Shown in pieces: positions 10,871 to 61,487 of a stretch of 64,000 bases of DNA (position 1 is the stretch's first letter; the number at the start of each line of letters is the position of its first letter). The stretch is from Roseomonas aeriglobus (GTDB lineage Bacteria; Pseudomonadota; Alphaproteobacteria; Sphingomonadales; Sphingomonadaceae): assembly GCA_016937575.1 (NCBI GenBank), contig JAFHKN010000002.1:2790001-2854000 (forward strand). The letters run 5' to 3'. The notes below the pieces were generated by a model, which worked only from the letters and a program-made list of their open reading frames with translations, searched no databases and was not told the origin of the DNA. The position numbers were made by a program, and so were the translations under genes.

Positions 10871-10880
10871 GGCGGCGTGG

Positions 10881-11300: not shown

Positions 11301-11340
11301 GAGGCCGCGTCCGTAGCTTCGCTACGGACTTGCGCGCCGG

Positions 11341-41286: not shown

Positions 41287-41306
41287 GTCGATCGGCTTCC
41301 TGACTT

Positions 41307-42107: not shown

Positions 42108-42130
42108 GACCTCCCGATCCTGCGCCGGTC

Positions 42131-45635: not shown

Positions 45636-45661
45636 GTCCCGCGATCTCCTCGTCCGCGACA

Positions 45662-45701
45662 CATAATCTGAGCTTTGGCGCTTCAGCTGAAATACATTAT
45701 G
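45662..45701. promoter_or_regulatory. Palindromic elements in the LysR/lower-operon divergent promoter
   Basis: CATAAT (45662-45667) pairs with ATTATG (45696-45701) and encloses the 10-bp palindrome TTCAGCTGAA (45682-45691). All lie in the 97-bp spacer between the divergent LysR gene (45733) and the lower operon (45635). This is where a LysR protein that controls its neighbour would bind, but the exact site is not established. Confidence 0.4.
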
Positions 45702-45732
45702 AGACCGATCGTCATACCTGAGAGATATCACC

Positions 45733-46662
45733 GTGGACCTTCGTCAAATGCGATATTTGATTGCTGTCGCTGAGGAGCTGAACTTCACCCGGGCCGCGCA
45801 ACGATGCCACGTTTCGCAGCCTCCGCTCAGTCGGGCGATCCGCGAGCTGGAAAGTGAAATCGGTGCGCGCCTGTTCGATCGCGACAAGCACCATGTCGCG
45901 CTGACCCCTGCCGGCACGGTATTCGTGGCCGACGCACGCAAGGCTTTGGAGCTTTTGGACGACGGATCGGAGCGCGCGCGCCGCGCCGCGCAGGGGCTGA
46001 GCGGAATACTTAATATCGGATTCGGCGGATCGACAGTCTACGCGCTGGTCCCCGCGCTGGTACGACGCTTCCGCGAGACCACTCCCGAAGTCGAGATCGT
46101 CTTCCACGCCATGTCGGTACTTCACCAGATCGAGGCGCTGCGCTCAGGCGAGATCGATGTCGGTATCGTCAGGCTGCCGATTTTCGACGAGTTGATCGAG
46201 ACGCGCTTCGTCTACAGCGAGCCCCTGATCGTTGCGCTTCCACTTGGCCATCCGCTGCTCGACCACAGCGGCGCGATCGGAATTGACGCCCTCGATTCGA
46301 GTGGCTTCGTCGCCTATGAGCCGACGCGCGGTTTCAATGTCCATGCGGATCTGCACGCGCTTTGCCGGCTCGCGGGCTTCGATCCGACGATCGAACACGA
46401 AGCGCCCACGACCGAGGCCGTGATCGGCATCGTCGCATGTGGCGAGGGCGTCGCGATCGTCCCGGCCTCGGCCGAGCGGCTGCGGATGCGGGGCGTGGCC
46501 TTTCGTCCGCTACAGCCGCCGCCGCAGGCGCCGGGCCTTGCCGACGTCCGTTTCGGCCTCGCCTGGCGGCACAAGCAGGCGAGCGCGACGACGATGCAAT
46601 TCGTGGAAACGGTGACCGCCGCGCTTCCCGCGATGGGGAAAGGCGGCGGTCAAGACTTCTGA
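45733..46662 (+). CDS. LysR-family transcriptional regulator
   Basis: A 309-aa LysR regulator. The N-terminal winged HTH is textbook ([39 protein letters not shown], then [15 protein letters not shown], residues 1-62). The effector domain follows ([20 protein letters not shown], and IDVGIVRLP with the usual D-G-I pattern). The sequence resembles the BenM/CatM branch that responds to aromatic acids or muconates. GTG start at 45733. Divergent placement with a 97-bp spacer points to control of the lower operon, with an intermediate as co-inducer. Confidence 0.93.
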
Positions 46663-48944: not shown

Positions 48945-48968
48945 ACCAACCCCTCCGATATTTCTATT

Positions 48969-49009
48969 ATGAACATGTCCATTATATTCTGAAAAACGGA
49001 CGCGTCCAT
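48969..49009. promoter_or_regulatory. Two operator copies upstream of the TonB receptor
   Basis: ATGAACATGTCCAT (48969-48982) and ACGGACGCGTCCAT (48996-49009) each match the 14-bp pattern ATGGAC-NN-GTCCAT with one mismatch. Their starts are 27 bp apart. They lie 25-65 bp before the receptor start and bracket an AT-rich TATATTCTGAAAAA stretch likely to be the promoter. The 258-bp region to the next gene holds no ORF. Confidence 0.7.
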
Positions 49010-49202: not shown

Positions 49203-50084
49203 CTATTCGCGAAAGCCGAGGGGCGGGATGCCGGCAACGCCCCAAACATCGCCTTTGTGTTGCGGGCCCCATATCTGAGGCTCGACCGGCGCGTTGGCAT
49301 CAAATTGCTCCATTTCGCCGTAATATTCGATATAGTTGCCGGCGGGATCGGTATAATAGCTGAACACATTGTTCCCCGGCCCGTGCCGTCCAACGCCCCA
49401 CACGCAGTTCACGCCAAGCGACCGCAATCGCGCAAAATTCCGCATGACGTTGTCCAGCGACCCGACGTCATAGGCCACATGCTGGAGTCCCGTCCGCCCC
49501 TCCCGGCTCTTCATCAGCGCGAGCGAATGATGATCGGCGTTGCAGCGCAGGAACGACATCCCCGCATTTGTCCGATCGGTGACCTGAAATCCCAGCGTCG
49601 CATAGAAGCGCTCCGCCGCGTCCTGGTCTGGCGTCCATAGGACGATATGTCCGATGCGGTCGGGTGCGAGGGCGGCTGGCGGCGTCACAACTTCGGCGGC
49701 ATCCGGCCGTGGCGTCACGAGCCAGACGTGGCGTCCGTCGGGATCCTCCACAACAATCGCCGCTTGGTCGCTGCGGAACAGATCCTGTTCCGAAACCGGC
49801 TGCGGAGCGAGGCCGGCGGCAGCGAGCCGCGTCGCGATCGCGTCGAGATCGTCTGTCGATAGGACTTGAAAGGCAAGGTGCGCGACTTGCGATGACCCTT
49901 CAGCGAGCACCAGATCGTCGTGGTCTTCTCTCCCGCTTCGAAACCCGGCAAAATCTAGGTCGGAGCCACGATCCTCCAACAGCCAGACATCACGATAGAA
50001 ACGTCGCGCCTCGTCAAGGTCGGGTACGCGCAACGCCAGCCGATGAATGCCTTGAACTCGCGGTGCCCGCTCCTGCATGTCCAT
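49203..50084 (-). CDS. VOC-family extradiol ring-cleavage dioxygenase
   Basis: A 293-aa type I extradiol dioxygenase-like protein built of two VOC modules (residues 10-130 and 145-270). The catalytic C-terminal module shows the 2-His-1-Glu set: His in DRIGHIVLW, His in GLQHVAYDV and Glu in NYIEYYGEM. These bind Fe(II) in catechol 2,3-dioxygenase and 1,2-dihydroxynaphthalene dioxygenase relatives. It would open a dihydroxylated ring next to the hydroxyls. ATG 50084 follows AGGAAGGG; TTG 50096 and ATG 50078 are alternatives. It has its own promoter region with a half-conserved operator at 50164. Confidence 0.85.
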   Translation of the reverse strand: MDMQERAPRVQGIHRLALRVPDLDEARRFYRDVWLLEDRGSDLDFAGFRSGREDHDDLVLAEGSSQVAHLAFQVLSTDDLDAIATRLAAAGLAPQPVSEQDLFRSDQAAIVVEDPDGRHVWLVTPRPDAAEVVTPPAALAPDRIGHIVLWTPDQDAAERFYATLGFQVTDRTNAGMSFLRCNADHHSLALMKSREGRTGLQHVAYDVGSLDNVMRNFARLRSLGVNCVWGVGRHGPGNNVFSYYTDPAGNYIEYYGEMEQFDANAPVEPQIWGPQHKGDVWGVAGIPPLGFRE

Positions 50085-50163
50085 TCCCTTCCTCAATCGC
50101 GCCGACCGCCGTCGCTCGAAGCGTCGGCAAAGATGACCCGCCCGACAATCCTAGTGAAATTGC

Positions 50164-50177
50164 AGGTACATGTCCAT
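50164..50177. promoter_or_regulatory. Degenerate operator upstream of the VOC dioxygenase
   Basis: AGGTACATGTCCAT matches ATGGAC-NN-GTCCAT with a perfect right half and two mismatches on the left. It is 80-95 bp before the dioxygenase start, followed by a run of T. It is weaker than the other copies, so regulation here is less certain. Confidence 0.5.
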
Positions 50178-50313
50178 TTTTTTTAGCCGGTAACGGGCAC
50201 ATAGTGGCGGTTGGGGAGCTCGTGTAGAACGGCGTGGACGGGACCGGCCCTACGCGGACGCAAACAGGTTTTCGCAGCACGAATCCGATCGAATGCATTT
50301 TTGGGGCGGTACA

Positions 50314-50334
50314 GTGTCCGATTGCATCGGACAC
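50314..50334. repeat. Perfect 21-bp palindrome between tetR and the VOC gene
   Basis: GTGTCCGAT (50314-50322) and ATCGGACAC (50326-50334) are exact complements around TGC. It lies in the 312-bp region between the end of the TetR gene (50397) and the VOC dioxygenase start (50084). It may be a second regulator's site or a terminator for the upper operon. It shares GTCC/GGAC with the ATGGAC operator, but in the opposite arrangement. Confidence 0.6.
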
Positions 50335-50396
50335 GACCATGTTCGTCGACCTTGCGCGGCTTCCGATCCGGTCGATGATGCGTCCGGCCGGGTGTC

Positions 50397-51116
50397 CTAA
50401 ACGTTCTGGCGGCTTCCGCGGGTACGCCGCCGGCGCGGTGTTTCGGAATCGGCAATGGCACCCGACCCGCCAGCTCCCGACTTGGATTTCAGGGTACTGA
50501 CCCGCGCTTGTTGGATCAGGCCCATGATCTGGAGCCGGATGAGACGCCGCAGATAAGCGATGCCCTCCTCCGCGACCGGATTGTCTCCGCCGATCCACCA
50601 TCGCGCCGTTGCCGAAAAGATCAGGAAAAAGTGTTGCGCAACGACATCGGTGGTCTCGGGAGGGCGAATTTCGCCACGATTGATCGCATCCTCGACCATG
50701 AACTCCAGTTGCCGGGCGATGGAGCGGCGGGTCCGCGTGTATTCCTCCCCGTGCATTCCGCCGGAATAATAGTTGATCTGAAGGAAGATGCGGGCGAGTC
50801 GGGGATTGTCCGCCCAGTCCCGATAGAAGGGCGTGAAAAAGGTGAGTATCCGTTCCTCGAACGGGATTTCGCGCGAACGCGTGACGTCGATCGCGGCCTC
50901 CATCGTGCTGACGGTGATTTCGTTGAAGACCAGCAACGTGAGATCGCGCTTGTCCGCCGCGTAGAGCGACAAGGTGCCGAGCGCGACATGCGCTTCGCGT
51001 GCCACATCACGCAGCGTCGTCGCGTCATAACCATATTCGGAGAACAGCTTCAGCGCGGCCAGCCTGATACGCTCGCGCTTCTCTGCCTTGTTCCGTTCCC
51101 GAACGCGCACCACCAT
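50397..51116 (-). CDS. TetR-family transcriptional regulator
   Basis: A 239-aa TetR-type repressor. The HTH spans residues 13-58 (KRERIRLAALKLFSEYGYDA then TTLRDVAREAHVALGTLSLY). The C-terminal ligand domain starts around LLVFNEITVSTMEAA and includes FFLIFSATARWWIGGD near residue 185. The tail is basic (RRRRTRGSRQNV). ATG 51116 follows GGGGGG; an ATG at 51137 is also possible. It is the last gene of the upper operon and the only TetR in the window. It is therefore the best candidate for the ATGGAC-NN-GTCCAT operators, giving feedback control. Confidence 0.9.
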   Translation of the reverse strand: MVVRVRERNKAEKRERIRLAALKLFSEYGYDATTLRDVAREAHVALGTLSLYAADKRDLTLLVFNEITVSTMEAAIDVTRSREIPFEERILTFFTPFYRDWADNPRLARIFLQINYYSGGMHGEEYTRTRRSIARQLEFMVEDAINRGEIRPPETTDVVAQHFFLIFSATARWWIGGDNPVAEEGIAYLRRLIRLQIMGLIQQARVSTLKSKSGAGGSGAIADSETPRRRRTRGSRQNV

Positions 51117-51223
51117 CCGGCCCCCCGTCGCCTGCATGGTTCGCGTTATCACACCTTTCGCGCGGTTTCGACCACGGGAAAGGCGCTGGTGCCGACAGGC
51201 TTGCGAACTAAACGCAACGATCA

Positions 51224-52591
51224 TCACGTCGACTGGGCGCGCGCCTTCTCCTCGCGACGGCGCGTGGCACGGACGAACGCGGCAGCGACAAACGCAGCGA
51301 TCAGCGGACTGAGCGCGAGACCCGCATAGATGCGCGATGTGCTCATGCCGCCCGCCAGGACGATCCCGACCAGCAACGGCGAGATCACTTGGCCGAAGCG
51401 CGCAGCCGAGGTTCCCCAACCGATCCCCGTAGAGCGCACCCGAACTGGAAACAGCTGCGCTGCCAGCGCCTGCGCTCCGGACGCGCCTATTCCTATGAAT
51501 GCGCCAACCAGGCCGGCCACGACAATCGTGGCCGCGAAATTGCTCGCGGTGAATCCAAGGCACCAGATCGAGAGCGCGTCGAAGAACAACGCAGGTACGA
51601 TCGTGCGCAGCGCACCGAAGCGGTCGACCAGCCACCCCGCGATCAGCATGGCGGCAACACAGCCGACATTGAACGCCGCCTGCGAAAATGCGGCCTGTGA
51701 TATCGAGAAGCCACTCTCCGCAAGGATCGAGGGAAACCAGACGACCATGATCTTGGTGGTCGCTGACACGAACAGGTTGAGCAGGCAGAGCAAGATCGTG
51801 AGCGGTGCCAGCCCTCCTTCGAAAACCGACCAAAGCGATTGGCGGGGTCGAGGATGTGACGAGACCGCAGCGCGCGATACATCCGCAGCAGCGGGATCCA
51901 GGCCCAGCTTCACGAGCAAGCGGTCGAGCCGTTCGCGGTGGGTGCCTGCTTCGATCAGGAAGCGAGGCGATTCCGGCAGCAGCAACAGGATGAGCACGAT
52001 CACGAGAGCACCGAGCGCCGCGCCCATGTAGAGAACGAGCCGCCAGTCGTGCTGCTGGAGAATGACCGCGGCCATCACCCCCCCCAGAGCTGCGCCCGCC
52101 GGATAGCCGGCGTAAACGACTGAGACCATCGTTCCGCGCAGCCGGGTGGGCGCATATTCCGACGTCAATGCCAGCGCGGATGCGAACACTCCGGCAAGCC
52201 CGATGCCCGCCAGAAACCGCGTGGCCAGCAGCAGCCCGAACGACGGAACGAGCGCCGTCAGCAGGGTAAATACCGTCATCGTCGAGACACTGAGGATGAT
52301 CGCCGGTCTGCGTCCGAAGCGGTCGCCGAACGGTCCGAATGCCAGCGCTCCGATGGTGGCGCCTACTTGGGTCAGCGAAAAGATGAGGCCCATCGCTGCC
52401 GTGCTCAAACCGAGCTCCGCGCTCATAAGGGGGGCGACGACCCCGATCGATTGATTGTCGATCCCGTCGAGCATTGTCACCAGCGCGCACAGCACGAACA
52501 CGCGAATTTGGATCGCCCGCAGGCGGCCCTGGTCGAGCGCGGCTATTGCCGAATGTTCGGTACCGGAAGGGGCTCCGCCAGGCATGATCAT
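51224..52591 (-). CDS. MFS transporter, aromatic acid/H+ symporter type
   Basis: A 455-aa, 12-helix major facilitator of the AAHS branch (PcaK/BenK-like). The signatures are LDGIDNQSIGVVAPLMSAEL in helix 1, GPFGDRFGRRPAI (motif A) near residue 82, and LLLPESPRFLI before the central loop. The D-G-x-D in helix 1 is conserved in aromatic-acid carriers. GGAGAAAG precedes ATG 52591. It probably imports the acidic growth substrate across the inner membrane, after the TonB receptor. Confidence 0.9.
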   Translation of the reverse strand: MIMPGGAPSGTEHSAIAALDQGRLRAIQIRVFVLCALVTMLDGIDNQSIGVVAPLMSAELGLSTAAMGLIFSLTQVGATIGALAFGPFGDRFGRRPAIILSVSTMTVFTLLTALVPSFGLLLATRFLAGIGLAGVFASALALTSEYAPTRLRGTMVSVVYAGYPAGAALGGVMAAVILQQHDWRLVLYMGAALGALVIVLILLLLPESPRFLIEAGTHRERLDRLLVKLGLDPAAADVSRAAVSSHPRPRQSLWSVFEGGLAPLTILLCLLNLFVSATTKIMVVWFPSILAESGFSISQAAFSQAAFNVGCVAAMLIAGWLVDRFGALRTIVPALFFDALSIWCLGFTASNFAATIVVAGLVGAFIGIGASGAQALAAQLFPVRVRSTGIGWGTSAARFGQVISPLLVGIVLAGGMSTSRIYAGLALSPLIAAFVAAAFVRATRRREEKARAQST

Positions 52592-52638
52592 CTTTCTCCG
52601 CAGAAATAATACGTGTTCGCGCCGCCCCCTCCTGGGAC

Positions 52639-53085
52639 TCAGCTCGATTTGTGTGCTGCGGATTCGAACGACAGGACGATGCGGCGCTCCTGGATACGCC
52701 AGACCCGATCCGGTCCGCGCCGATAGATATCGTGTGCGTCGGCCAGAGCGATCGGTTCGGCGGGCGACAACTCCGGCCCGTTGGAGCGGAACAGGAGGAT
52801 GAAGCAGAGGCCGCGCGCCCGATCGGGTCCGTCGCCCCAGAAACGAAAGTTGGTGCAGACGTGGCGGACGCGGCGATTTCGCGCGGCCGCGCGCTCGCGG
52901 CCATAGGCATTGATCGCTTCGGACCCTTCGCAAGTGAAGTTGGGGGCAAGGAGGCGCCCATCCTCGGTGTAGAGTTCGGCCAGATCTTCGGAGCAGTTCA
53001 TGTCGAGCCGGTAGGCGTGCTCTGTGATCAGCGCCTCGAGTTCGGCGCGCAGCGCCGCGTCTTTGATGGGGACGCCGATAGTCAC
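52639..53085 (-). CDS. SnoaL-like/NTF2-fold protein
   Basis: A 148-aa NTF2-like protein of the group that includes dioxygenase beta subunits and small dehydratases. AYRLDMNCSEDLAELYTEDG and WRIQERRIVLSFES are typical of the fold. The GTG start at 53085 overlaps the hydratase-aldolase stop (GTGA). It could be an accessory lyase or isomerase in the upper pathway, or stabilise an oxygenase. The frame extends upstream without coding character. Confidence 0.72.
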   Translation of the reverse strand: MTIGVPIKDAALRAELEALITEHAYRLDMNCSEDLAELYTEDGRLLAPNFTCEGSEAINAYGRERAAARNRRVRHVCTNFRFWGDGPDRARGLCFILLFRSNGPELSPAEPIALADAHDIYRRGPDRVWRIQERRIVLSFESAAHKSS

Positions 53086-54077
53086 GATACCGCCTCCGCC
53101 GCTGCGGCCGCGCGACCGCCGGCGAATTCGTCCCGAAGCTGGCTCCAGCGCCGCCCGGCTTCGCGTGACGCCTCGGCATAGTCGTCGGGGAAAATGTCGT
53201 AAGGCGGGCGGATGGGACCGGGGTCGCAATAGCCTGCCTCCGCAATCCGCGTCTTTTCCATCTGGGTGTTATAGCTGGCGAACAGCTCCGGATTTCCCAG
53301 CATCGGGGCAAGCGGCGCGATGCTCCATGCGATCCGTTCGTCGATATGCTTGGTCTGATCAGCATCGCCGGCCAGGATCGCGTCGATCAGCGCTCTCGAT
53401 GGCTCCGGCCCCATACCCGCCGCAGTCGCCCAGCAGGAAGTGGTCGTGGCCGGCGAGATCGCCTGGAACTTGGCGGCGACCATGTCGCTCGGCATGAAGT
53501 GGATGCGGCCTTCGGTCGCGGCGATATTCTCGGCCAGGTTGGTCGGCTGGGACGATTTCACCGAGGTTACCGTCGGCGCCTCCTTCGCGATCCGCGCCCA
53601 AAACTCGGTGGGAAAGGAGAAGCGGAAGGCGCGCGCATTGGCATAGGCCATCACCGCGAGATCGGGAAACGCCTGCCCGACCTCGGCATAGAAGCGGACG
53701 GCCATATCGACAGTGCAAGGCTGCCACATCGGCAAGCCAAGCAAGGTACCGTCGGCACCCTGTTCGCGTGCGAACGCTAGCCGTTTATAGGCTTCGTGCC
53801 CCCCCATCGCGGTCGCCCCAACGAACAGCGGAATGCGCTTGCCGACAGTCTGAGCGACGGTGGCGACGAAGCTGCGATAGTCCTCATTCGATATGGTCGC
53901 GCATTCGCCCGTGGTACCCAGGACGATCAGGCCGTTCGCCCCATCGTCGATCAGCGCGCGGATCAGCCGCTCGGTTTCGTCCAGCGCGACGGTGTCGGTG
54001 GCGTCGATCGCCTGCGCACCGGCGCGCGCCGGCGTCGGGATGATGGCGTAAAGTCCCTTGAAATCCTGCGCCTGCAT
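53082..54077 (-). CDS. DapA-family hydratase-aldolase (NahE-like)
   Basis: A 331-aa class I aldolase of the DHDPS family. Schiff-base Lys174 lies in TVTSVKSSQ, the assisting Tyr145 in VMAYANARAF, and GTTGECATI near residues 54-62. The sequence resembles trans-o-hydroxybenzylidenepyruvate hydratase-aldolase (NahE/PhnE type) more than lysine-pathway DapA, for example DETERLIRALIDDGANGL and LGLPMWQPCTVDMAVRFY. That enzyme splits the extradiol cleavage product into pyruvate and an aromatic aldehyde. AGGAG lies upstream of ATG 54077; GTG 54095 overlaps the previous stop and is the alternative. Confidence 0.85.
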   Translation of the reverse strand: MQAQDFKGLYAIIPTPARAGAQAIDATDTVALDETERLIRALIDDGANGLIVLGTTGECATISNEDYRSFVATVAQTVGKRIPLFVGATAMGGHEAYKRLAFAREQGADGTLLGLPMWQPCTVDMAVRFYAEVGQAFPDLAVMAYANARAFRFSFPTEFWARIAKEAPTVTSVKSSQPTNLAENIAATEGRIHFMPSDMVAAKFQAISPATTTSCWATAAGMGPEPSRALIDAILAGDADQTKHIDERIAWSIAPLAPMLGNPELFASYNTQMEKTRIAEAGYCDPGPIRPPYDIFPDDYAEASREAGRRWSQLRDEFAGGRAAAAAEAVS

Positions 54078-54091
54078 CAAAACTGCTCTCC

Positions 54092-55297
54092 TCAATCCCT
54101 CACCGGTACTTGGTGCGACATGACGACCTCGCGTCCTTCGCGTGCCGACCGCAGAATCGCCTCGCTCACTTCCATTGTCGCGCGCCCCCAGGCGCCGTCG
54201 TGCAGGATCGGGCGCAGTCCGGCGAAGGCATCGAACATCTCGTCGATGACGCCGCTCTTGTCCGGAAAGACACGCGGCGGATCGAGCGGATGCTCGACCG
54301 CGCCATGCTTGCCGTAATGAATGACGCCGCGTGCCGACTGGCGCAGATCACCGTCCGGCCCGCTGACGATCGTCACGCCAAAATGGGGGTGGTTCCATTC
54401 GTCCTGGGGAGGAACGGTGAGGCGCCGGTCTCCCCCGAAACCGCCCGCCGCCTTGGCCGCCGCTTCGGAGCCAGCGCCCGCGATATCCTCCAGCGCCATG
54501 CGCGAGGCGGCGTGCCGTTCGGGCCGTTTGGGCTCACCGAGTTCGCCGACCCAATAATGGAACTCGTCGGTGTCGAAATAGTCGTAGCCGCTGTACACGA
54601 GTGATGCGGCGCTGCCGTTCTCGAACTGGAGGAAGGTGACGTGGGCACCCTCGGTCGGTCGGTCGGGATCGAGTGTCCATGCCATCGAACGTACGCTGCG
54701 GACCATGCCGCCCCCGAGCAGCCGCGCCACGTCCACCTGATGCGGAACCTGATTGTAGATGATGCCGCCGCCCGCGTCGGTGCGCAGTTCCTCGGGCCGG
54801 CGGGGCCGGTAGAGGAAATTGCCGTAGTTCCACGAATTGATCATCGAAACCGGCCCGATTGCGCCTTCGCGGATCAAAGCGCGCATCTTGAGGACTGGTG
54901 CGTCGAAGGCATGCGTATGGCCGACGAGCAAGTGGACGCCGTTCGCGTCCGCGGCCGCGATGATGGCGCCGCACTCCTCCAGCGTGAGCGCCATCGGCTT
55001 CTCGATGATGATGTGTTTTCCCGCGCGCGCAGCCAACGCCGCATGATCGCGGTGCATCTGATGGGGCGTGGCGATGTAGACCACGTCGACCTCAGGATCG
55101 GCGCACAACGCCTCCGCCGTGGCATGGGTGCGCTCACCGAATTCGGCGGCGAAGGCGTGGCGCGCCTCCTCCCGCGGGTCGGCGGCGGCGGTGATCGCGA
55201 CATGCGGATGGCTGAGGAAGCTCGGCATCATCTGCTTGGCCGCGCCGCCCAGGCCGATGATGCCCAGCCGCATCGTCGGCATCGCCCGATCGTTCAC
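54092..55297 (-). CDS. Gfo/Idh/MocA-family oxidoreductase, 4,5-dihydroxyphthalate dehydrogenase-like
   Basis: A 401-aa NAD(P)-dependent oxidoreductase. It has the Rossmann motif LGIIGLGGAAKQM (residues 10-22), VYIATPHQMHRDHAALAARA and the EKPMAL motif with the catalytic Lys. The C-terminal sheet domain contains GGGIIYNQVPHQVDVARLL. The adjacent decarboxylase suggests the Pht4 branch, which oxidises phthalate cis-dihydrodiols in place of a short-chain dehydrogenase. GTG 55297 overlaps the preceding stop (GTGA); ATG 55282 is an alternative. No SDR-type diol dehydrogenase is present, so this gene is the likely diol dehydrogenase of the pathway. Confidence 0.82.
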   Translation of the reverse strand: MNDRAMPTMRLGIIGLGGAAKQMMPSFLSHPHVAITAAADPREEARHAFAAEFGERTHATAEALCADPEVDVVYIATPHQMHRDHAALAARAGKHIIIEKPMALTLEECGAIIAAADANGVHLLVGHTHAFDAPVLKMRALIREGAIGPVSMINSWNYGNFLYRPRRPEELRTDAGGGIIYNQVPHQVDVARLLGGGMVRSVRSMAWTLDPDRPTEGAHVTFLQFENGSAASLVYSGYDYFDTDEFHYWVGELGEPKRPERHAASRMALEDIAGAGSEAAAKAAGGFGGDRRLTVPPQDEWNHPHFGVTIVSGPDGDLRQSARGVIHYGKHGAVEHPLDPPRVFPDKSGVIDEMFDAFAGLRPILHDGAWGRATMEVSEAILRSAREGREVVMSHQVPVRD

Positions 55298-56283
55298 AGG
55301 CGGATTCCGGCGCTTGCCTGGACGTTGGGCGCGAAGAGTTCTTCGATCTCCACGCGGCGTGGCGCCAGCCCCTGCTCGTGGAGGAAGGCGCACAGCGCCT
55401 CGATCGTGGGCCGGTTGGGCTCGATGCCATAGGGCCAGAAATCATCGCCAAAGATATCGCGGATCGAACGGACATATTGCCCGATCCATGGCAACGAAAT
55501 GGGTAGCGGCTCATCGATCGACAGCTCGGCGAGGCAGTTCGCCTTGCTCTGTTCAAACGCATGTTGGAGGCTGACCGCGACCCAGGGATCGCGTTCCCAC
55601 ACGTCGCGACGAATGACGACGGTGTGCATGATCGGAAAAACGCGTGTCTTGGCGAAATAGGCGCGCTCGACGCCGGGCACGTCGGCGAAGAGATGGCGGA
55701 TCCGTCGATCACCGGCGAGCAGCGCCGGCGGCGCCTGCGGCGCGATCAGCGCGTCGATGGTGCCGTCGGCGAGCATCTCGTTCAGCGCCCGCCCTTCTTC
55801 ATGCTCGATCGTGACGCCGTCGATCCGCACTTCGGTGAGCGGGCGGCGGCCTGCCGCTTGAAGCCCGCCGGTGATCCAGTGGATGTCTTGCGGCTGGACG
55901 CCATATTCGTGCATCAGTGCACCCCGGGCCCAGACGGCCGCGGTCATCGAATATTCGGGCACGCCCACCCGCCGTCCCTTCAGGTCGGCGGGCGCGGCGA
56001 TGCCGGCGGCCGCGTTCACGTAAATCGCGCCGTGGCGGAACGTGCGCGAAGGAAAGACCGGGATCGCGACGAACGGGGCGTTGCCCTGTGCGACACGCAG
56101 TACATAAGTCGAAAACGACATCTCGCCGCAGGCAAATTCGCCGCGCAGCACCCGATTGAACGCCTGCACCGGCGACATCGGAATAAAGTGCAGGTCAATT
56201 CCCTCTGGTACGACCGTGCCATGATATAGAGCGCGGACTCGGTCCGACAGGTGGCCCGCATAGCTAAGCGAGAGTTTTGCCAC
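55294..56283 (-). CDS. 4,5-dihydroxyphthalate decarboxylase-like protein
   Basis: A 329-aa protein of the Pht5/OphC-type decarboxylase family, which has a periplasmic-binding-protein (NMT1-like) fold without a signal peptide. Recognisable parts are VPEGIDLHFIPMSPVQAFNR, GEFACGEMSFSTYVLR, IPVFPSRTFRHGAIYVN, LKGRRVGVPEYSMTAAVWAR and the C-terminal YVRSIRDIFGDDFWPYGIEP. The enzyme removes a carboxylate ortho to a hydroxylated ring position. It follows the Rieske beta-subunit gene by 8 bp and starts with GTG after GAGG. Confidence 0.88.
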   Translation of the reverse strand: MAKLSLSYAGHLSDRVRALYHGTVVPEGIDLHFIPMSPVQAFNRVLRGEFACGEMSFSTYVLRVAQGNAPFVAIPVFPSRTFRHGAIYVNAAAGIAAPADLKGRRVGVPEYSMTAAVWARGALMHEYGVQPQDIHWITGGLQAAGRRPLTEVRIDGVTIEHEEGRALNEMLADGTIDALIAPQAPPALLAGDRRIRHLFADVPGVERAYFAKTRVFPIMHTVVIRRDVWERDPWVAVSLQHAFEQSKANCLAELSIDEPLPISLPWIGQYVRSIRDIFGDDFWPYGIEPNRPTIEALCAFLHEQGLAPRRVEIEELFAPNVQASAGIRL

Positions 56284-56291
56284 GCGCCGCC

Positions 56292-56846
56292 TCAGAGAAA
56301 GATCGAGAGCGATTCGAGGCCGAGCACCGTGGCATCGAGGATGGCGGTGCGTCTGATGAGCCGCGTCGCGTTACCGCCGATACGGATTTCGTCGAAGCGT
56401 TCGGCTGTGAGAATCTGCGGATGCGCCGCGTCGCCACGATGGCAGAACACAACCAGGTTGCTGCGCGCCGCCACCAGTGCCGGGTCGCTGCCGTGCGGCG
56501 TCACGCGGATGTTGGAGACCATGCGCCGCGTGCGCGTCGCCGGGCTTTCCGACCAGGCATAGCGCGAACGAAGTCGCTTCACGCGCATTTCGATCGAGGC
56601 ATGATCCTCTTTCAAATAGAAAGCGGTGTCGCTGATACCCGTGCCGTCCCAATTCTCGCGGCCAGTCCGGACCGGCGCCGAATAGTCGATCGCCGGGTCG
56701 AGCAGTTCGAACCATTCGGCGAAGCGGCGGTCATCGAGATACTCGGCTTCCCTGTTGAGGAATTCCTCGCAAGCCTGCTGCAAGGCAAAGTCGACCCGCT
56801 GGCCGGCAGATCCAGCCGCGATATGGGCGGTCGCCGCTTCAGTCAT
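56292..56846 (-). CDS. Aromatic-ring-hydroxylating dioxygenase beta subunit
   Basis: A 184-aa NTF2-fold beta subunit of a Rieske dioxygenase. EEFLNREAEYLDDRRFAEWF, LLDPAIDYSAPV and the C-terminal RRTAILDATVLGLESLSIFL are family-typical. It gives the alpha3-beta3 hexamer structure and has no cofactor. The ATG overlaps the alpha-subunit stop by 8 bp (ATGACTGA), a very tight coupling matching 1:1 assembly. Confidence 0.92.
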   Translation of the reverse strand: MTEAATAHIAAGSAGQRVDFALQQACEEFLNREAEYLDDRRFAEWFELLDPAIDYSAPVRTGRENWDGTGISDTAFYLKEDHASIEMRVKRLRSRYAWSESPATRTRRMVSNIRVTPHGSDPALVAARSNLVVFCHRGDAAHPQILTAERFDEIRIGGNATRLIRRTAILDATVLGLESLSIFL

Positions 56847-58212
56847 GATCGCCGGCCTCGACCTTGGAGTTGGTCATGCGTTCGTACCAGGTCTTATGGA
56901 ATGTTCTCAGGCCGCCCTCGCCCGCATTTGTCGAGTTGGCGACGCCCGGCCCAACCCAGTCCGTCAGCGGCTTGCTGGTGCTCATGTCCCCCATTCCCAT
57001 CTGATAGTTGAAGCGCACCTTGTTGAGCTCGGCGAAAACAGTGCCGGCCGTGCGGGTGACGCCTGGCCAGACCGCGACATCGTCCTGCTCGAAGCTGCCT
57101 GAGGGGCTGAAACTGCTCATCCCCACTTGATAGGCGCGGCGCTTATACTCGGGAGACGCCTCTTTTGGCGCCAGCACCCAATTCCAAATCTCCATTTGGC
57201 CCGGCCCCTTGGGCTGCCAGACGCGCAGCGTGAGGAAACCTGCCTGCGGCTTCTGCGGGCTATCGCTCAGGCCGATATGAAGGAACGAGAAGTTCGGAAA
57301 CAACGTGCCGTTATGCAGCAGCGATCGCTTGGCCAGATCGAACTGGTCCTGGCTAAGCGCGCCGGCATGGAAATGACGGGTCACCTCCTCCGGGTAGGAA
57401 ATGAACGGCGCCTCGCCGGGGACCTGGCGGATGCTGATCGCGTGGCCGCTGCAATCATGAACATGGAGCCCGGTCCCTTCCCGCGGTGCCCCGGCAGCGG
57501 CGCTGTCGATGATGCCGGCTTCCAGCACCGATCGGTGAGTCATCTGGGTATGCGAGCTGTCGCCGCAGAAATTCTCCGCGCCCTGCTTCCAGTTCGCGTC
57601 GACCAGCCAGCGATGCGGCTCTCCCAGCACTTCCATCCCACCGTCGGACAGTGCGAACTGGATGTCGAAATACCATTTGTAATCGCCGAGATACTCTTCG
57701 AACGGCGCGGCATCCGGGTCGAGATTGGCGAAGATCAATCCCATGTAATTGGTGACGTGCGGCGCTGCGAACAGGCCCCATTCCTTGAGGGCCAGCGACG
57801 CATATCCCTGGCTGCGAACCGGCACGCCAATCAACTCGCCGCTGTTGCGATACGCCCAGCCATGGAACGGACAGACGAAACCCTTGGTATTGCCCGCCTG
57901 CACCCGGCACACCTGCGCACCACGGTGGCGGCACGCATTGAGCAATACGCGCAACTCGCCCTGTTCGTCGCGGATCAGGATGAACGGATCCTCGCCGATG
58001 TTGCGGGTGACGAAATCCCCCCGGTTCGGGATTTCAGTTTCATGCCCGATATACACCCAGGATTTTGCGAAGATGCGCCGCAGCTCGAGATCGTAGACAT
58101 CGCGATCGTGGAACACTGCGGCGGGGAGCAACCCCTTGCGCAGATCGTCCTCCATGCCTTCGATCGAAGCGGGAACGGCAAAAGCCTGCTCAGTCACACC
58201 CATACTCTCCAT
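56839..58212 (-). CDS. Aromatic-ring-hydroxylating dioxygenase alpha subunit (Rieske)
   Basis: A 457-aa catalytic subunit. The Rieske cluster ligands are Cys94-x-His96 and Cys114-x2-His117 (NACRHRGAQ, GFVCPFHGWAY). The mononuclear iron region NFCGDSSHTQMTH near residue 212 gives the bridging Asp and two His. The enzyme adds both atoms of oxygen to an aromatic ring to form a cis-dihydrodiol. It resembles the benzoate/naphthoate/PAH alpha-subunit group by length and beta partner. The substrate is unknown. The start is ATG 58212, or ATG 58203 which has GGAG close by. First gene of the upper operon, with an operator 150 bp upstream. Confidence 0.93.
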   Translation of the reverse strand: MESMGVTEQAFAVPASIEGMEDDLRKGLLPAAVFHDRDVYDLELRRIFAKSWVYIGHETEIPNRGDFVTRNIGEDPFILIRDEQGELRVLLNACRHRGAQVCRVQAGNTKGFVCPFHGWAYRNSGELIGVPVRSQGYASLALKEWGLFAAPHVTNYMGLIFANLDPDAAPFEEYLGDYKWYFDIQFALSDGGMEVLGEPHRWLVDANWKQGAENFCGDSSHTQMTHRSVLEAGIIDSAAAGAPREGTGLHVHDCSGHAISIRQVPGEAPFISYPEEVTRHFHAGALSQDQFDLAKRSLLHNGTLFPNFSFLHIGLSDSPQKPQAGFLTLRVWQPKGPGQMEIWNWVLAPKEASPEYKRRAYQVGMSSFSPSGSFEQDDVAVWPGVTRTAGTVFAELNKVRFNYQMGMGDMSTSKPLTDWVGPGVANSTNAGEGGLRTFHKTWYERMTNSKVEAGDHD

Positions 58213-58364
58213 CAGCGACCCCGCGGGTCGGCTTTGCCATAGCGCATCACGAATCTGAATCGGGCGGGCAGCCGCGCCCGCGCGATGCCGCATCAAATCC
58301 GGAAAAACGCTCCATCGACGATCGCGCTGAGAACCTCGTTCAAAGACCAACCGCATTCATCTTA

Positions 58365-58380
58365 AATGGACATGTCCATT
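58365..58380. promoter_or_regulatory. Perfect 16-bp operator palindrome, upper operon/MFS divergent promoter
   Basis: AATGGACATGTCCATT, perfectly symmetrical, in the 272-bp spacer between the dioxygenase operon (58212) and the divergent MFS gene (58485). It is the best copy of the ATGGAC-NN-GTCCAT motif also found at 48969, 48996, 50164 and 59974. It probably binds the TetR regulator and could control both directions. Confidence 0.8.
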
Positions 58381-58484
58381 AAATTAGGCGATGTCAAGGC
58401 GCATCCGCATGGCTTTCCATCAAATCGATACGTGCGTGTCAGGGCCGCAGACGGGCGTATCGAACAACGCGACGGAGGACGAGA

Positions 58485-59915
58485 TTGAACGACACCGGCG
58501 GTAACGGAGAAGGGGTCAGGCTGGCAAAATCGTCGCCCGGCGCCATTGCCGGCTTGTCCGCCACCATCTTCCTGTCGTCTCTGGGCGGCAGCGTGGCGAA
58601 TGTCGGCTTGCCGACACTGTCGCGCGCGTTCGCGATCAGCTTCCCGCAGGCGCAGTGGATCGTGATCGCCTATTTCCTCGCGGTTATCAGTCTGATCGTA
58701 AATGCCGGCCGCCTCGCCGACAGCGTCGGCCGGCAGCGCCTCATTCTCGCCGGTCTGGCACTGTTCGGCCTGGCTTCGATAGGCGCGGGCGCGGCATCGA
58801 GTTTTTGGTTCCTGATCGCGGCGCGGGCGCTGCAAGGCGTGGGCGGCGCGATCATGCTGGTGCTGGCGTTCGCGCTGGTTTGCGACATCGTGCGCCCTGA
58901 ACGACTTGGCAGTGCGCTGGGCTTGCTGGCCGCGATGTCGGGCTTGGGAACTGCCGCCGGGCCGTCGTTGGGCGGGCTGCTGATCGCGGTGTCGGGCTGG
59001 CGCGCGCTATTCCTCGTCAACGTGCCGGTCTGCATCGCGATCGCCTGGATGATTTATCGCTCCGTACCCCGAACGCTCCATCCCGAAGCCACACCGTGGC
59101 GCCCTGATTGGGCCGGCACCGCTCTGCTCATCTCGGCGCTGTGCGCCTATTGCTATGCCGCCACGCCCGCGAGTGGGCACTTCGCCACCGGCAACGCCAT
59201 CGCGCTGACGCTCGCAGTGGCCGCCGCGGCAGCGTTCATACTCGTCGAGCGACGTGTCGCCGATCCCCTGCTGCGGCTGGGGATGTTCCGCGACGTGGTC
59301 CTGTGCGGCAACCTGGCAATGAGCGTGATCGGCTCGGCCGTGATCATGGCGACGCTGGTCGTCGGCCCTTTCTATCTGGTCGAGGGTTTGCGTATGAAGC
59401 CCGTTCAGGCGGGGCTGATACTCTCCGCCGGGCCGGTGATCTCGGTCATCGCAGGCGTACCGATCGGTCGGCTGGTGGACCGGCTGGGCATAGCCGCCAT
59501 GAGCATGTCCGGACTGGTGATCATGGGAGCGGGAACGATGGCGCTGGCGCTCGGCGAGGGGATCGTCGGACTCCCACGCTTCGTCGGCGCGATGATCGCG
59601 GTGATGGGCGGCTATGGCGCGTTCCAGATCGCCAACAATGCTGCGGTGATGGCAAAATCATCGTCCGGGACACGCGGCAACTTCGCCGGGATGATCAACT
59701 TGTCGCGCAATATCGGACTGGTGACCGGCGCATCCGTGATGGCCTCGATCTTTTCCGCCACCGCACACGACCAAACTTCGACCGGACTCGCCGCGGCGCA
59801 CGGCCTCCGGGCCACCTTCGCAGTAGCCGCCGGCATGGCTGCGGTTGCCGTTGCGATCGGCTTGTCGAGCGGGGCGATCGCGTTCGTGCGCCGCAATGCG
59901 AAACCCGGCGGCTGA
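58485..59915 (+). CDS. DHA2-type MFS transporter
   Basis: A 476-aa, 14-helix major facilitator of the EmrB/QacA (DHA2) branch. It has FLSSLGGSVANVGLPTLSRA in helix 1, GRLADSVGRQRLILAG (motif A), RALQGVGGAIMLVLAFALV (motif B with the functional Arg) and GLLAAMSGLGTAAGPSLGG (antiporter motif C). It most likely exports substrate or a toxic intermediate. TTG start at 58485 after GACGGAGGACGAGA. It is divergent from the dioxygenase operon over a shared operator. Confidence 0.9.
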   Translation: MNDTGGNGEGVRLAKSSPGAIAGLSATIFLSSLGGSVANVGLPTLSRAFAISFPQAQWIVIAYFLAVISLIVNAGRLADSVGRQRLILAGLALFGLASIGAGAASSFWFLIAARALQGVGGAIMLVLAFALVCDIVRPERLGSALGLLAAMSGLGTAAGPSLGGLLIAVSGWRALFLVNVPVCIAIAWMIYRSVPRTLHPEATPWRPDWAGTALLISALCAYCYAATPASGHFATGNAIALTLAVAAAAAFILVERRVADPLLRLGMFRDVVLCGNLAMSVIGSAVIMATLVVGPFYLVEGLRMKPVQAGLILSAGPVISVIAGVPIGRLVDRLGIAAMSMSGLVIMGAGTMALALGEGIVGLPRFVGAMIAVMGGYGAFQIANNAAVMAKSSSGTRGNFAGMINLSRNIGLVTGASVMASIFSATAHDQTSTGLAAAHGLRATFAVAAGMAAVAVAIGLSSGAIAFVRRNAKPGG

Positions 59916-59973
59916 CGGCAAATTTCCGGTCGCGCTTCTAGAAAGGTTGACGCAACCGACCAGCCGTATAGAA

Positions 59974-59987
59974 ATGGACACGTCCAT
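59974..59987. promoter_or_regulatory. Operator upstream of the aldehyde dehydrogenase
   Basis: ATGGACACGTCCAT, a full match to ATGGAC-NN-GTCCAT, 43 bp before the aldehyde dehydrogenase start and 59 bp after the MFS stop. Another ACTGGACG half-site follows near 59991. It indicates a separately regulated promoter for the dehydrogenase. Confidence 0.75.
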
Positions 59988-60029
59988 AAAACTGGACGCC
60001 TTGCACGCCCCATAAGCTGGAGAGAACCA

Positions 60030-61487
60030 ATGAAGCCGGTAACGACGGCGTCGCGCATGTTGATCGGCGGCGATCTGGTGGCGAGCGAAAGCGGCGGCTG
60101 GATCGATTCGATCGATCCCGCGACCGAAGAAGTGATCGGACGCATTCCGGCCGGCAATGCACGCGATGTGGCGCGTGCGGTGGACGCCGCAGATCGCTCG
60201 TGGGAGGCGTGGAACGGCATCGGCGTCGCCGCGCGTGCCGAGGCGCTTCGCGCGTTCGGGCGCAAGATCCTCGAGCGTGCCGACGAGCTGCTCGAGGTCG
60301 AGGTCCGCGATACCGGCAACACGATCGCGCCGATGCGCGGCGACGTGCGCACCGGCGTGGAAGGGATCAACTATTATGCCGGCCTGGCTTATGAGCTGAA
60401 GGGAGAAACCATTCCCGCGACGCCGGGCAATCTCCACTTCACGGTGCGCGAGCCCTATGGCGTGGTGGCTCGCATTGTCCCCTTCAACCATCCGGTGATG
60501 TTCTCCACTGCGCGCACCGCGGCCGCGCTGATGGCCGGCAATTCGGTAGTGGTGAAGCCGCCCGAGACGAGCTCGCTTTCTGCGCTGATCCTTTCGGAGG
60601 TCGCGCGCGATGCGCTGCCGCCAGGCGTGTTCAACATCGTCACCGGCACCGGTGCCGGCGCCGGCGCGCCGCTGGTGCGCCATCCCGGCGTCAAGCGCAT
60701 CGCGTTCATCGGATCGGTCGAGACGGGTATGGCCATTCAGCGCATGGCGGCGGAGAGCGCGGTCAAGCACGTCACTCTGGAGCTGGGTGGCAAGAACCCG
60801 CTAATCGCCTTTCCCGACGTGGATCCCGCAATCGTGATCGACGCGGCGATCGCCGGCATGAACTTCTCGTGGCAGGGCCAGTCGTGCGGATCGACCAGCA
60901 GGCTGCTGCTTCACGACTCGATCCACGACGAAGTCGTCGCCGGGCTCACCGAGCGCATCCGCGCGATACGGGTGGGCGATCCGATGGACCCGTCCAGCCA
61001 GATGGGTGCGATCAACTCGAAAGCCCAGCATGACAAAGTTTTGCGCCATATCGCCGCCGCGCGTGAGGATGGTGCGCGACTGCTGGCCGGCGGCGGCCGG
61101 CCTGAAGGGGAGCAATTCCGTAAGGGCTTTTGGATCGAGCCAACGCTGTTCGGCGATGTCGAGCAATCGATGCGGATTGCCCAGCAGGAAGTGTTCGGCC
61201 CGGTTCTGTCGGTGATGAGATGGTCGACCCTCGACCAGGCGATCGCGATCGCCAACGCGACCGACCTCGGCCTGACCGCGTCGATCTATGCCAACAATGT
61301 CGACGACGCTTTCGCCGCGGCGCGAAGGGTGCGCTCCGGCTATGTGTGGATCAACAGCGTCGGACCGCATTACCCGGCAATGCCCTATGGCGGAATGAAG
61401 AACAGCGGAACCGGACGCGAGGAAGGCATAGAGGAAATGCTGAGCTACACCGAGCAGAAGGCCTATAATTTGGCGATGCGGATATAA
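60030..61487 (+). CDS. Aldehyde dehydrogenase, probably aromatic or semialdehyde
   Basis: A 485-aa NAD+-dependent aldehyde dehydrogenase. Catalytic Glu251 lies in TLELGGKNPLI and Cys286 in GQSCGSTSR. The cofactor loop FNHPVMFSTARTAAALMAGN and the C-terminal PYGGMKNSGTGREEGIEEM are normal. It resembles betaine- and benzaldehyde-dehydrogenase groups. With a NahE-like aldolase in the same regulon, the aldehyde released there (salicylaldehyde-like) is a plausible substrate. TGGAGAGAACC precedes the ATG, and an operator lies just upstream. Confidence 0.9.
   Translation: MKPVTTASRMLIGGDLVASESGGWIDSIDPATEEVIGRIPAGNARDVARAVDAADRSWEAWNGIGVAARAEALRAFGRKILERADELLEVEVRDTGNTIAPMRGDVRTGVEGINYYAGLAYELKGETIPATPGNLHFTVREPYGVVARIVPFNHPVMFSTARTAAALMAGNSVVVKPPETSSLSALILSEVARDALPPGVFNIVTGTGAGAGAPLVRHPGVKRIAFIGSVETGMAIQRMAAESAVKHVTLELGGKNPLIAFPDVDPAIVIDAAIAGMNFSWQGQSCGSTSRLLLHDSIHDEVVAGLTERIRAIRVGDPMDPSSQMGAINSKAQHDKVLRHIAAAREDGARLLAGGGRPEGEQFRKGFWIEPTLFGDVEQSMRIAQQEVFGPVLSVMRWSTLDQAIAIANATDLGLTASIYANNVDDAFAAARRVRSGYVWINSVGPHYPAMPYGGMKNSGTGREEGIEEMLSYTEQKAYNLAMRI

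Follow-up and report, generated by a model that had tools for sequence, protein, structure and literature searches.

The chromosome of Roseomonas aeriglobus carries, within the 64-kb stretch analysed here (the window), a conserved set of genes that appears suited to the degradation of a two-ring aromatic acid. We propose that they encode an upper pathway that degrades a bicyclic aromatic dicarboxylate and is controlled by the TetR protein. Judged from the sequence, naphthalene-1,8-dicarboxylate (naphthalic acid), known to arise from tar hydrocarbons, is the best single fit, a tentative assignment that falls somewhat short of an even chance. That the substrate is a carboxylated bicyclic aromatic, as the original prediction had it, appears very probable from the gene families, the recurrence of the set in other genomes and the presence of the aldolase in all 11 loci with a close Pht5 homologue. 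The enzymes named in that prediction (Rieske dioxygenase, Pht4-like dehydrogenase, Pht5-like decarboxylase, VOC dioxygenase, NahE-like aldolase and aldehyde dehydrogenase) are all present at the positions given (Table 1). A conserved and regulated operon of this kind supplies defined genes for experiments and could serve as a marker of site contamination.

Organization and regulation of the locus

Table 1. Features of the locus, with positions counted from the first letter of the window
Feature	Position	Strand	Evidence and context
NAD/Fer2 reductase	38939..39913	-	family match; possible redox partner (candidate)
Succinate-semialdehyde-dehydrogenase-like protein	39910..41328	-	best model PRK13968, 572 bits (cut-off 855)
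HpaI-type 4-hydroxy-2-oxoheptanedioate aldolase	41307..42134	-	TIGR02311, 383.9 bits (above cut-off 368.8)
HpaH-like hydratase	42131..42973	-	TIGR02312, 351.1 bits (cut-off 351.5)
Bicupin	42973..44073	-	family matches and alignment A2
Ornithine cyclodeaminase/mu-crystallin (OCD) family protein	44086..45081	-	PF02423, 138 bits
CMD-like protein	45078..45731	-	PF02627, 20.5 bits (below cut-off 23); alignment A4
LysR regulator	45733..46662	+	adjoins lower module
TonB-dependent receptor	46725..48944	-	preceded by same operator sequence as dioxygenase operon
Two operators (48969 and 48996)	48969..49009	.	one mismatch each; upstream of TonB receptor gene
Two-domain VOC extradiol dioxygenase	49203..50096	-	PF00903, 98.9 bits
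Operator	50164..50177	.	two mismatches; upstream of VOC gene
TetR regulator	50397..51116 (about)	-	TetR_N, 42.9 bits
AAHS-type aromatic acid/H+ symporter	51224..52591 (about)	-	TIGR00895, 281 bits (below cut-off 418.55)
SnoaL-like protein	52639..53085	-	SnoaL_4, PF13577, 43 bits
NahE-like hydratase-aldolase (DHDPS family)	53082..54095	-	NahE-type 6dao 207 bits, 9frt 204, PhdJ 175
Pht4-like Gfo/Idh dihydrodiol dehydrogenase	54092..55393	-	closest solved chain 7wzd (4,5-dihydroxyphthalate dehydrogenase), 351 bits; activity predicted
Pht5-like aromatic decarboxylase	55294..56283	-	sole match 9jp7 (4,5-dihydroxyphthalate decarboxylase), 247 bits; activity predicted
Rieske dioxygenase beta subunit	56292..56846	-	PF00866, 115 bits
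Rieske dioxygenase alpha subunit	56839..58356	-	Pfam Rieske and Ring_hydroxyl_A
Operator ATGGACATGTCCAT	58366..58379	.	0 mismatches; separates dioxygenase operon from MFS gene
MFS transporter	58485..59915	+	MFS_1, 170 bits
Operator ATGGACACGTCCAT	59974..59987	.	0 mismatches; upstream of aldehyde dehydrogenase gene
Aldehyde dehydrogenase	60030..61487	+	Aldedh, 502 bits

The genes had been placed under one operator. The operator sequence is real, but it is one sequence repeated at several promoters and not a single site. The whole 4.28 Mb genome contains the motif TGGACNNGTCCA three times, each time within this locus, and six operator matches were observed against 0.82 expected, a number reached by none of 100-200 shuffles. 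One of the six, at 60984 and with two mismatches, lies within the aldehyde dehydrogenase gene. The TetR protein, of which homologues are present in clusters L030, L033, L034 and L150, is a candidate reader of the operator, while a LysR gene adjoins the lower module here and in L148, L149, L150, L151, L161 and L162. The original prediction did not mention the TetR gene, the AAHS-type symporter gene or the SnoaL-like gene.

Enzymes of the putative upper pathway

The Rieske alpha subunit, which likely starts at 58215 (Met48), retains the Rieske and iron-ligand motifs. It scores 378 bits to the Rhodococcus naphthalene dioxygenase (2b1x), 305 bits to phthalate 3,4-dioxygenase (9jp5) and 38 bits to the phthalate 4,5-dioxygenase chain among those listed. 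As in the pht pathway via 4,5-dihydroxyphthalate, adjoining Pht4 and Pht5 homologues come after a Rieske oxygenase. The dioxygenase of the window, however, has two subunits and is NarA/PhtA-like, whereas the Pht3-type oxygenase has no beta subunit, and extradiol cleavage and an aldolase follow. With the nah/nar naphthalene upper pathway the locus shares an alpha/beta Rieske dioxygenase, extradiol cleavage, a NahE-type hydratase-aldolase and an aldehyde dehydrogenase. It differs in its additional Pht5-type decarboxylase, in a VOC enzyme from another branch and in its product, which is probably a hydroxyphthalate. Moreover, the Pht4-type protein, whose gene likely starts near 55297 or 55282, stands where nah operons have an SDR cis-dihydrodiol dehydrogenase, in agreement with the replacement proposed earlier.

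The ring-cleavage step had been described as NahC-type, which the closest solved chains do not bear out: the VOC enzyme scores 128 bits to 3b59 and 27 bits to 1,2-dihydroxynaphthalene dioxygenase (2ehz). Its His, His and Glu positions are kept in 11 of 11 clusters. Against the pathway proposed below, the VOC proteins in 5 of 10 other clusters are just 31-33% identical to it. No NahD-family gene was found among the cluster genes scanned; genome-wide there are six DSBA-family (NahD-type) matches, four of them above the cut-off and none at this locus. The SnoaL-like protein, with homologues in L030, L033, L034, L036 and L040, is possibly an isomerase. Its predicted structure was set aside for poor quality (mean pLDDT 49.9 from four sequences). 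The aldehyde dehydrogenase would act on the aldolase product; of the 11 other clusters in the comparison, 8 contain a homologue of it.

The hydratase-aldolase keeps the catalytic-lysine position in all 12 clusters and bears on the number of rings in the substrate. A monocyclic compound such as a phthalate variant would agree with the Pht4 and Pht5 homologues; the DHDPS-family protein would then have an aliphatic intermediate as its substrate, and general DHDPS-family models match the aldolase too. We nevertheless regard such a substrate as very improbable: the aldolase scores 207 bits to NahE vs less than 60 bits to any dihydrodipicolinate synthase, and it is absent from the loci with looser Pht5 homologues (0 of 69).

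Recurrence of the gene set in other genomes

Nine other genomes or plasmids (L034, L036, L037, L038, L039, L040, L041, L042 and L030+L142) carry both Rieske subunits, Pht5, Pht4 and the hydratase-aldolase as a group. Relatives with the cluster include Hephaestia caeni DSM 25527, Novosphingobium naphthalenivorans NBRC 102051 and Agrobacterium leguminum AT13. In L035, UbiD and TctC genes occupy the places expected for the Rieske and Gfo/Idh genes, a point against the proposed pathway; TctC and citrate-synthase-like neighbours were dismissed as substrate clues, as they give little information beyond acid uptake. A DNA-level plasmid search matched 81 records, none covering more than 80% of the query.

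Distance correlations among the two Rieske subunits, Pht5 and Gfo/Idh range from 0.89 to 0.97, values that partly reflect common descent and for which the Pseudonocardia Rieske alpha and beta were drawn from two different operons; that between aldolase and VOC enzyme is 0.89. Pht5 correlates best with Gfo/Idh (0.97), followed by Rieske alpha (0.93). Since its correlation with the aldehyde dehydrogenase (0.91) exceeds that with Rieske beta (0.90), these values are compatible with either an early or a late action of Pht5.

A proposed route from naphthalene-1,8-dicarboxylate

We infer the substrate, the positions attacked, the order of the steps and all activities as follows. The Rieske enzyme would add O2 at C3/C4 of one ring of naphthalene-1,8-dicarboxylate, and the Pht4-like Gfo/Idh enzyme would aromatise the diol. 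The Pht5-like enzyme may then remove the carboxylate para to a hydroxyl, giving 5,6-dihydroxy-1-naphthoate, with the peri carboxylate standing in for the ortho carboxylate of phthalate. Ring opening by the VOC enzyme, in which the SnoaL-like protein may serve as an isomerase, would be followed by aldolase cleavage to pyruvate and 2-formyl-3-hydroxybenzoate, which the aldehyde dehydrogenase would convert to 3-hydroxyphthalate. This product would be handled by the cupin module in the window, and in Agrobacterium by a PhtC-like protein and 3-hydroxybenzoate/gentisate-type genes instead.

Acenaphthylene, fluoranthene and benzo[k]fluoranthene are reported to be degraded via naphthalene-1,8-dicarboxylate (PMC3937716; PMC4318275), which in Sphingobium KK22 is described as the point where these three routes converge (PMC3937716). 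A published scheme that leads from it via 1-naphthoate and salicylate (PMC5006600) counts against our proposal, as does the 2,3-dihydroxybenzoate reported from it in work cited in PMC3937716. The passages retrieved from the literature searched describe no gene cluster for its further breakdown. They also agree with the earlier statement that no described pathway has exactly this set; the set itself, however, recurs in other genomes.

Probable end product of the upper pathway

The Agrobacterium cluster continues with a PhtC-like gene, a 3-hydroxybenzoate 6-monooxygenase gene (571 bits, above the cut-off of 459) and gentisate-type genes. The PhtC-like product is a class II aldolase-family protein with PhtC as its best model. 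Given these genes, carbocyclic 3-hydroxybenzoate is the likely product there, and this continuation suggests 3-hydroxyphthalate as the product of the upper pathway. Salicylate, the end product originally predicted, thus becomes doubtful, as the downstream genes point to a hydroxyphthalate. Against the proposal, the 3-hydroxybenzoate genes adjoin the cluster only in Agrobacterium; in four beta genomes the nearest homologues, with 35-48% identity, lie on contigs other than that of the cluster, and in the sphingomonads and Pseudonocardia the search at 1e-60 found no homologue. PhtC-like genes adjoin the cluster only in Agrobacterium, L038 and L039, a likeness to the phthalate 3,4-dioxygenase pathway (PhtA, PhtC) in addition to that of the Rieske alpha subunit. 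The proteins remain below the curated cut-off (74 bits in Agrobacterium and 87 bits, vs 200), and naphthalene-type steps intervene.

The gene families set reaction types, not positions. Another carboxylated bicyclic (naphthalene-2,3-, 1,2- or 2,6-dicarboxylate, or 2-naphthoate) could pass through the same kinds of step to another hydroxyphthalate or hydroxyterephthalate, and 2-hydroxyterephthalate could likewise give 3-hydroxybenzoate. We consider these compounds unlikely, as they would fit the reaction geometry of Pht5 and PhtC more poorly.

The lower module and the possible fate of the second ring

The next module in the window comprises the cupin, HpaH, HpaI, CMD and OCD genes. Like gentisate and salicylate 1,2-dioxygenases, the bicupin has three His metal-ligand positions, here in its second cupin (H271, H273 and H312, motif-mapped and invariant in alignment A2). 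It has only 64 bits to TIGR02272 (cut-off 442). Arg127, Trp172 and Asp174 are said to be conserved in all GDOs (PMC11264262), whereas by our own residue mapping the bicupin has N279, E323 and T325 at the equivalent positions, invariant in 12 of 12 members. Because these conserved residues do not fit, we rejected the name gentisate or salicylate dioxygenase; the sequence indicates that the protein is probably a ring-cleaving dioxygenase of a distinct subfamily.

These residues also bear on a route from 1-naphthoate via 1,2-dihydroxy-8-carboxynaphthalene to 3-formylsalicylate and 2-hydroxyisophthalate, in which a late Pht5-like step would yield salicylate, to be opened by the cupin. Chemistry of this kind, with its dihydroxy-carboxynaphthalene, carboxybenzalpyruvate and formyl-hydroxybenzoate logic, is reported in Stenotrophomonas maltophilia CSV89, where the product is salicylate, in a passage that names no genes (PMC8006333), and Pseudaminobacter salicylatoxidans is known to open the salicylate ring directly (PMC11117675). 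The route would employ every upper gene, one decarboxylase would suffice, the product of salicylate opening would be close to the HpaH/HpaI substrates, and the correlation of Pht5 with the aldehyde dehydrogenase agrees with it. The two top correlations of Pht5, the replaced cupin residues and the 3-hydroxybenzoate implied by the Agrobacterium genes all speak against it, and 1-naphthoate appears an unlikely substrate.

Kynurenate and quinaldate were weighed because of the OCD-family protein, which might act on an imine derived from such an N- or O-containing bicyclic acid. Kynurenate chemistry resembles the proposed steps, the models that score highest for the OCD protein describe mainly amine or imine enzymes, and the Agrobacterium cluster contains a gene annotated as cysteine hydrolase, a family with amidases among its members. 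The Agrobacterium end genes, however, suit carbocyclic 3-hydroxybenzoate, no amidase-family match was found among the scanned genes of 38.9-61.5 kb, and a literature search on kynurenate/quinaldate found nothing on its genes. We consider a heterocyclic substrate very improbable.

For the preferred substrate, naphthalene-1,8-dicarboxylate, one can further imagine that the distinct-subfamily cupin opens 3-hydroxyphthalate directly, that the CMD-like protein (gene start likely at 45614) removes the extra carboxylate once the ring is open, that the OCD-family protein acts as a reductase on the product, and that HpaH, HpaI and the semialdehyde dehydrogenase lead to pyruvate and succinate. We regard this full combination as rather unlikely; if the cupin module works in this way, it would add a ring-opening route for hydroxyphthalates. 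The reductase at 38939, a candidate redox partner, is retained in the Hephaestia copy (79%); in the Agrobacterium copy its place is taken by a ferredoxin of the Rieske type together with a ferredoxin reductase.

Gene content of the upper pathway

All genes of the upper pathway were located on the minus or plus strand, and the core set recurs in other genomes, which bears out and extends the gene set of the original prediction for this 4.28 Mb genome (7 contigs). The alpha subunit is nearest to the Rhodococcus naphthalene dioxygenase (2b1x, 378 bits) and to phthalate 3,4-dioxygenase (9jp5, 305 bits). The Gfo/Idh protein matches 4,5-dihydroxyphthalate dehydrogenase (7wzd, 351 bits), and the sole match of the Pht5-like protein is 9jp7 (247 bits). 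For the aldolase, two NahE-type chains (207 and 204 bits) are followed by PhdJ (175 bits), with dihydrodipicolinate synthases below 60 bits. Within the aligned clusters, the Rieske and iron ligands are kept in 10/10 alpha subunits, His-His-Glu in 11/11 VOC proteins and the lysine in 12/12 aldolases. The AAA-type ATPase gene at the right end runs past the window; its retron/PtuA defence ATPase matches are weak and far below the cut-offs.

Features of the upper pathway region and of the window flanks (window positions)
Feature	Position	Strand	Transcription order
MobA/MobL match	35811-36497		
TonB receptor	46725-48944	-	10
VOC extradiol dioxygenase	49203-50096	-	9
TetR regulator	about 50397-51116	-	8
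AAHS-type transporter	about 51224-52591	-	7
SnoaL-like protein	52639-53085	-	6
NahE-like hydratase-aldolase	53082-54095	-	5
Pht4-like Gfo/Idh	54092-55393	-	4
Pht5-like decarboxylase	55294-56283	-	3
Rieske beta	56292-56846	-	2
Rieske alpha	56839-58356	-	1
MFS gene	58485-59915	+	
Aldehyde dehydrogenase	60030-61487	+	
AAA-type ATPase	62326-63999		

Conservation of the gene set

The Pht5-like family was followed through genome contigs in the best 80 of 558 loci. Among these 80, the nearest named relatives belong to the sphingomonads Novosphingobium naphthalenivorans (91%) and Hephaestia caeni (84%), and identity to the window's protein is at least 55% in 11 loci and 42–49% in 69. The 11 close loci carry the aldolase (11/11), Gfo/Idh (10/11), VOC (9/11), both Rieske subunits (8/11), aldehyde dehydrogenase (7/11) and SnoaL-like (4/11) genes; in the 69 looser ones, aldolase, Rieske beta and VOC genes were each found in 0/69, Gfo/Idh in 12/69, aldehyde dehydrogenase in 7/69 and Rieske alpha in a single locus (26% identical). 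The three close loci lacking Rieske genes are those of N. naphthalenivorans (L033) and L043, whose stretches start at Pht5, and L035, which departs from the common pattern in that UbiD and TctC genes adjoin Pht5 and the aldolase. One further locus (L040) has neither VOC nor aldehyde dehydrogenase within its 13.5 kb stretch.

Rieske alpha and beta, Pht5, Gfo/Idh and aldolase are found together in nine further genomes or plasmids (L034 of H. caeni, L036 to L042, and the Agrobacterium leguminum plasmid, L030 plus L142), hosted by Alphaproteobacteria, Betaproteobacteria and one Pseudonocardia MAG. Of 396 genomes sampled from the order, 20 (own genome counted) encode a relative of Pht5 at 1e-20. 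Since none of the others exceeds 45% identity, close forms are uncommon among relatives. For the alpha subunit, 7434 candidates yielded 540 relatives at 1e-50 or better; on plasmids, only the A. leguminum record exceeds 60% identity among 939 with any match. The parts are known families, while their combination in a conserved, regulated form is new; no such gene set was found in the accessible portions of the open-licence papers searched.

Next to the beta clusters a citrate-synthase-family protein is kept (L037 3809-5227, homologues in L038, L039 and L041); it has a weak N-terminal helix-turn-helix match and is possibly a regulator, and a member is also annotated in L145 (a Paraburkholderia plasmid). 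Within 20 kb, plasmid pLA3 of Novosphingobium pentaromativorans US6-1 (L144) has three genes of the DHDPS family as well as genes annotated as a 2-hydroxychromene-2-carboxylate isomerase and as three ring-cleaving enzymes.

A shared operator

The palindrome ATGGAC-NN-GTCCAT lies 5' of the dioxygenase operon (58366) and of the aldehyde dehydrogenase gene (59974), with one mismatch twice 5' of the TonB gene (48969 and 48996) and with two mismatches 5' of the VOC gene (50164). Six matches were observed in the window against 0.82 expected. The exact core TGGACNNGTCCA has three sites genome-wide, every one in this locus, the third being within the aldehyde dehydrogenase gene. Allowing one mismatch, H. 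caeni (L034) has five sites (5' of the transporter, aldehyde dehydrogenase and dioxygenase genes, and two 5' of TonB), Novosphingobium album (L150) has three, and the A. leguminum plasmid has one, about 90 bases 5' of the dioxygenase alpha gene; 20 shuffles of the same stretches gave means of 0 to 0.05. At this threshold no site was found in the stretches of L033, L036, L037, L038, L039, L041 and L042, and in that of N. naphthalenivorans (L033) two copies persist, each with two changes. L030, L033, L034 and L150 encode TetR homologues, and the TetR protein of the window is the predicted binder of the palindrome.

Product and substrate

The best clue to the product is the A. leguminum plasmid, where the cluster spans the origin of a circular record. 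One side has ferredoxin reductase, aldolase (59%) and aldehyde dehydrogenase (62%) genes, together with a class II aldolase-family protein whose best model is the 3,4-dihydroxyphthalate decarboxylase PhtC (74 bits, cut-off 200). The other side encodes a Rieske-type ferredoxin and a 3-hydroxybenzoate 6-monooxygenase (571 bits, cut-off 459). It also has genes of the cupin, maleylacetoacetate isomerase and fumarylacetoacetate hydrolase families, read here as a probable gentisate pathway. These genes point to 3-hydroxybenzoate, and salicylate, the product originally predicted, appears doubtful. With 3-hydroxybenzoate as product, the aldehyde dehydrogenase would presumably form 3-hydroxyphthalate (or 2-hydroxyterephthalate).

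L038 and L039 also have a PhtC-like protein close to the cluster. With that of L038 as query, 0/4 sphingomonads (the window's genome and three others) matched at 1e-15, Pseudonocardia gave matches of 33–36%, a Xanthobacteraceae MAG ten matches (best 43%), and four beta genomes 61, 100 (the query itself), 93 and 64%, the 61 and 64% matches being off the cluster's contig. Close cupin homologues (49–98%) are present in three sphingomonads and Pseudonocardia, and homologues of only 27–33% in the beta and Xanthobacteraceae genomes. In this small sample, and with class II aldolase-family proteins being common, one head seems to be served by two different tails.

The proposed substrate class, a carboxylated bicyclic aromatic, is supported. 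3-Hydroxyphthalate would derive from 5,6-dihydroxy-1-naphthoate, and the Pht5 step, if early, would require an additional carboxylate located near the existing one and para to a hydroxyl. Pht5 would then act on 3,4-dihydroxynaphthalene-1,8-dicarboxylate, from which we infer, on chemical grounds, naphthalene-1,8-dicarboxylate as pathway substrate. This compound has been reported as an intermediate when sphingomonads break down acenaphthylene, fluoranthene or benzo[k]fluoranthene, and when Rhizobium CU-A1 breaks down acenaphthylene (PMC3937716, PMC4318275). Its onward route is given as 1-naphthoate and salicylate in one report (PMC5006600) and as 2,3-dihydroxybenzoate in another (work cited in PMC3937716).

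Pairwise distance correlations across up to 12 clusters, all of them raised by common descent, are 0.89–0.97 within a block formed by both Rieske subunits, Pht5 and Gfo/Idh, 0.89 for the aldolase–VOC pair, and 0.45–0.78 between these two blocks. For Pseudonocardia, alpha was taken from L146 and beta from L147, two different operons. The pattern would be consistent with two functional units in which Pht4 and Pht5 belong close to the dioxygenase step. Correlations of the aldehyde dehydrogenase are 0.84–0.91 to the first block, 0.71 to the aldolase and 0.53 to VOC. Since Pht5 is tied slightly more closely to it (0.91) than to Rieske beta (0.90), the correlations do not decide whether Pht5 acts early or late. 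An early Pht5 is thereby less well supported, which gives slightly more weight to the main rival substrate, 1-naphthoate degraded by the route described for CSV89 (PMC8006333), which we still regard as rather unlikely next to naphthalene-1,8-dicarboxylate.

The lower module

CMD, OCD, cupin, HpaH, HpaI and semialdehyde dehydrogenase genes stand together in L152 (Hephaestia), L150, L148, L149 and L162, without the semialdehyde dehydrogenase in L161; L151 (a contig end), L145, L146, L160 and L163 have CMD, OCD and cupin only, the L145 gene annotated hpaI_2 giving no match to the window's HpaI at 1e-8. Because the fetched stretches around L145 and L160–L163 contain the lower module and lack this upper pathway, it is adjacency that ties the module to the upper product. 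Cupin homologues at 1e-40 occur in 4/396 order and 2/398 phylum genomes (own genome counted in each). HpaI of the window is above its curated cut-off and HpaH 0.4 bits under its own. In 12/12 aligned cupins the three His positions of the second domain are kept, and Asn, Glu and Thr stand at Arg127, Trp172 and Asp174 of salicylate dioxygenase, as mapped by motif without structural alignment (roles of these residues: PMC10306065, PMC11264262). OpaD of Pseudomonas PTH10 is a precedent for losing an extra carboxylate after ring opening (PMC6362003).

In L145 (6011-19213), the cupin, annotated hpaI_2, CMD and OCD genes have as neighbours an oxygenase alpha gene, a reductase of the PDR/VanB type, an AAHS transporter and a Pht5 homologue of 40% identity. 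L160 has an ordinary DHDPS-family gene (10807-11775, 257 bits) after CMD-OCD-cupin, in place of the HpaH and HpaI found elsewhere.

Genomic setting

On its left the window is chromosomal, with UvrA, succinate dehydrogenase-like and GyrB genes whose third-position GC is 0.88–0.92. Values are 0.69–0.84 for genes of 38.9–61.5 kb, leaving aside one spurious call opposite the TetR gene (0.64), and an intermediate 0.64–0.84 between 20 and 32 kb, so the border of the catabolic region is not sharp. N. naphthalenivorans shares 92% DNA identity over 47465-56265; its transporter, TetR and VOC proteins are 99–100% identical and the others there 80–95% (Pht5 91%, Gfo/Idh 87%, SnoaL-like 80%), a mosaic that would fit a recent exchange involving part of the cluster. 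The MobA/MobL match (27.9 bits, cut-off 26.7), which lies where the catabolic region begins on the left, may be a relic of transfer.
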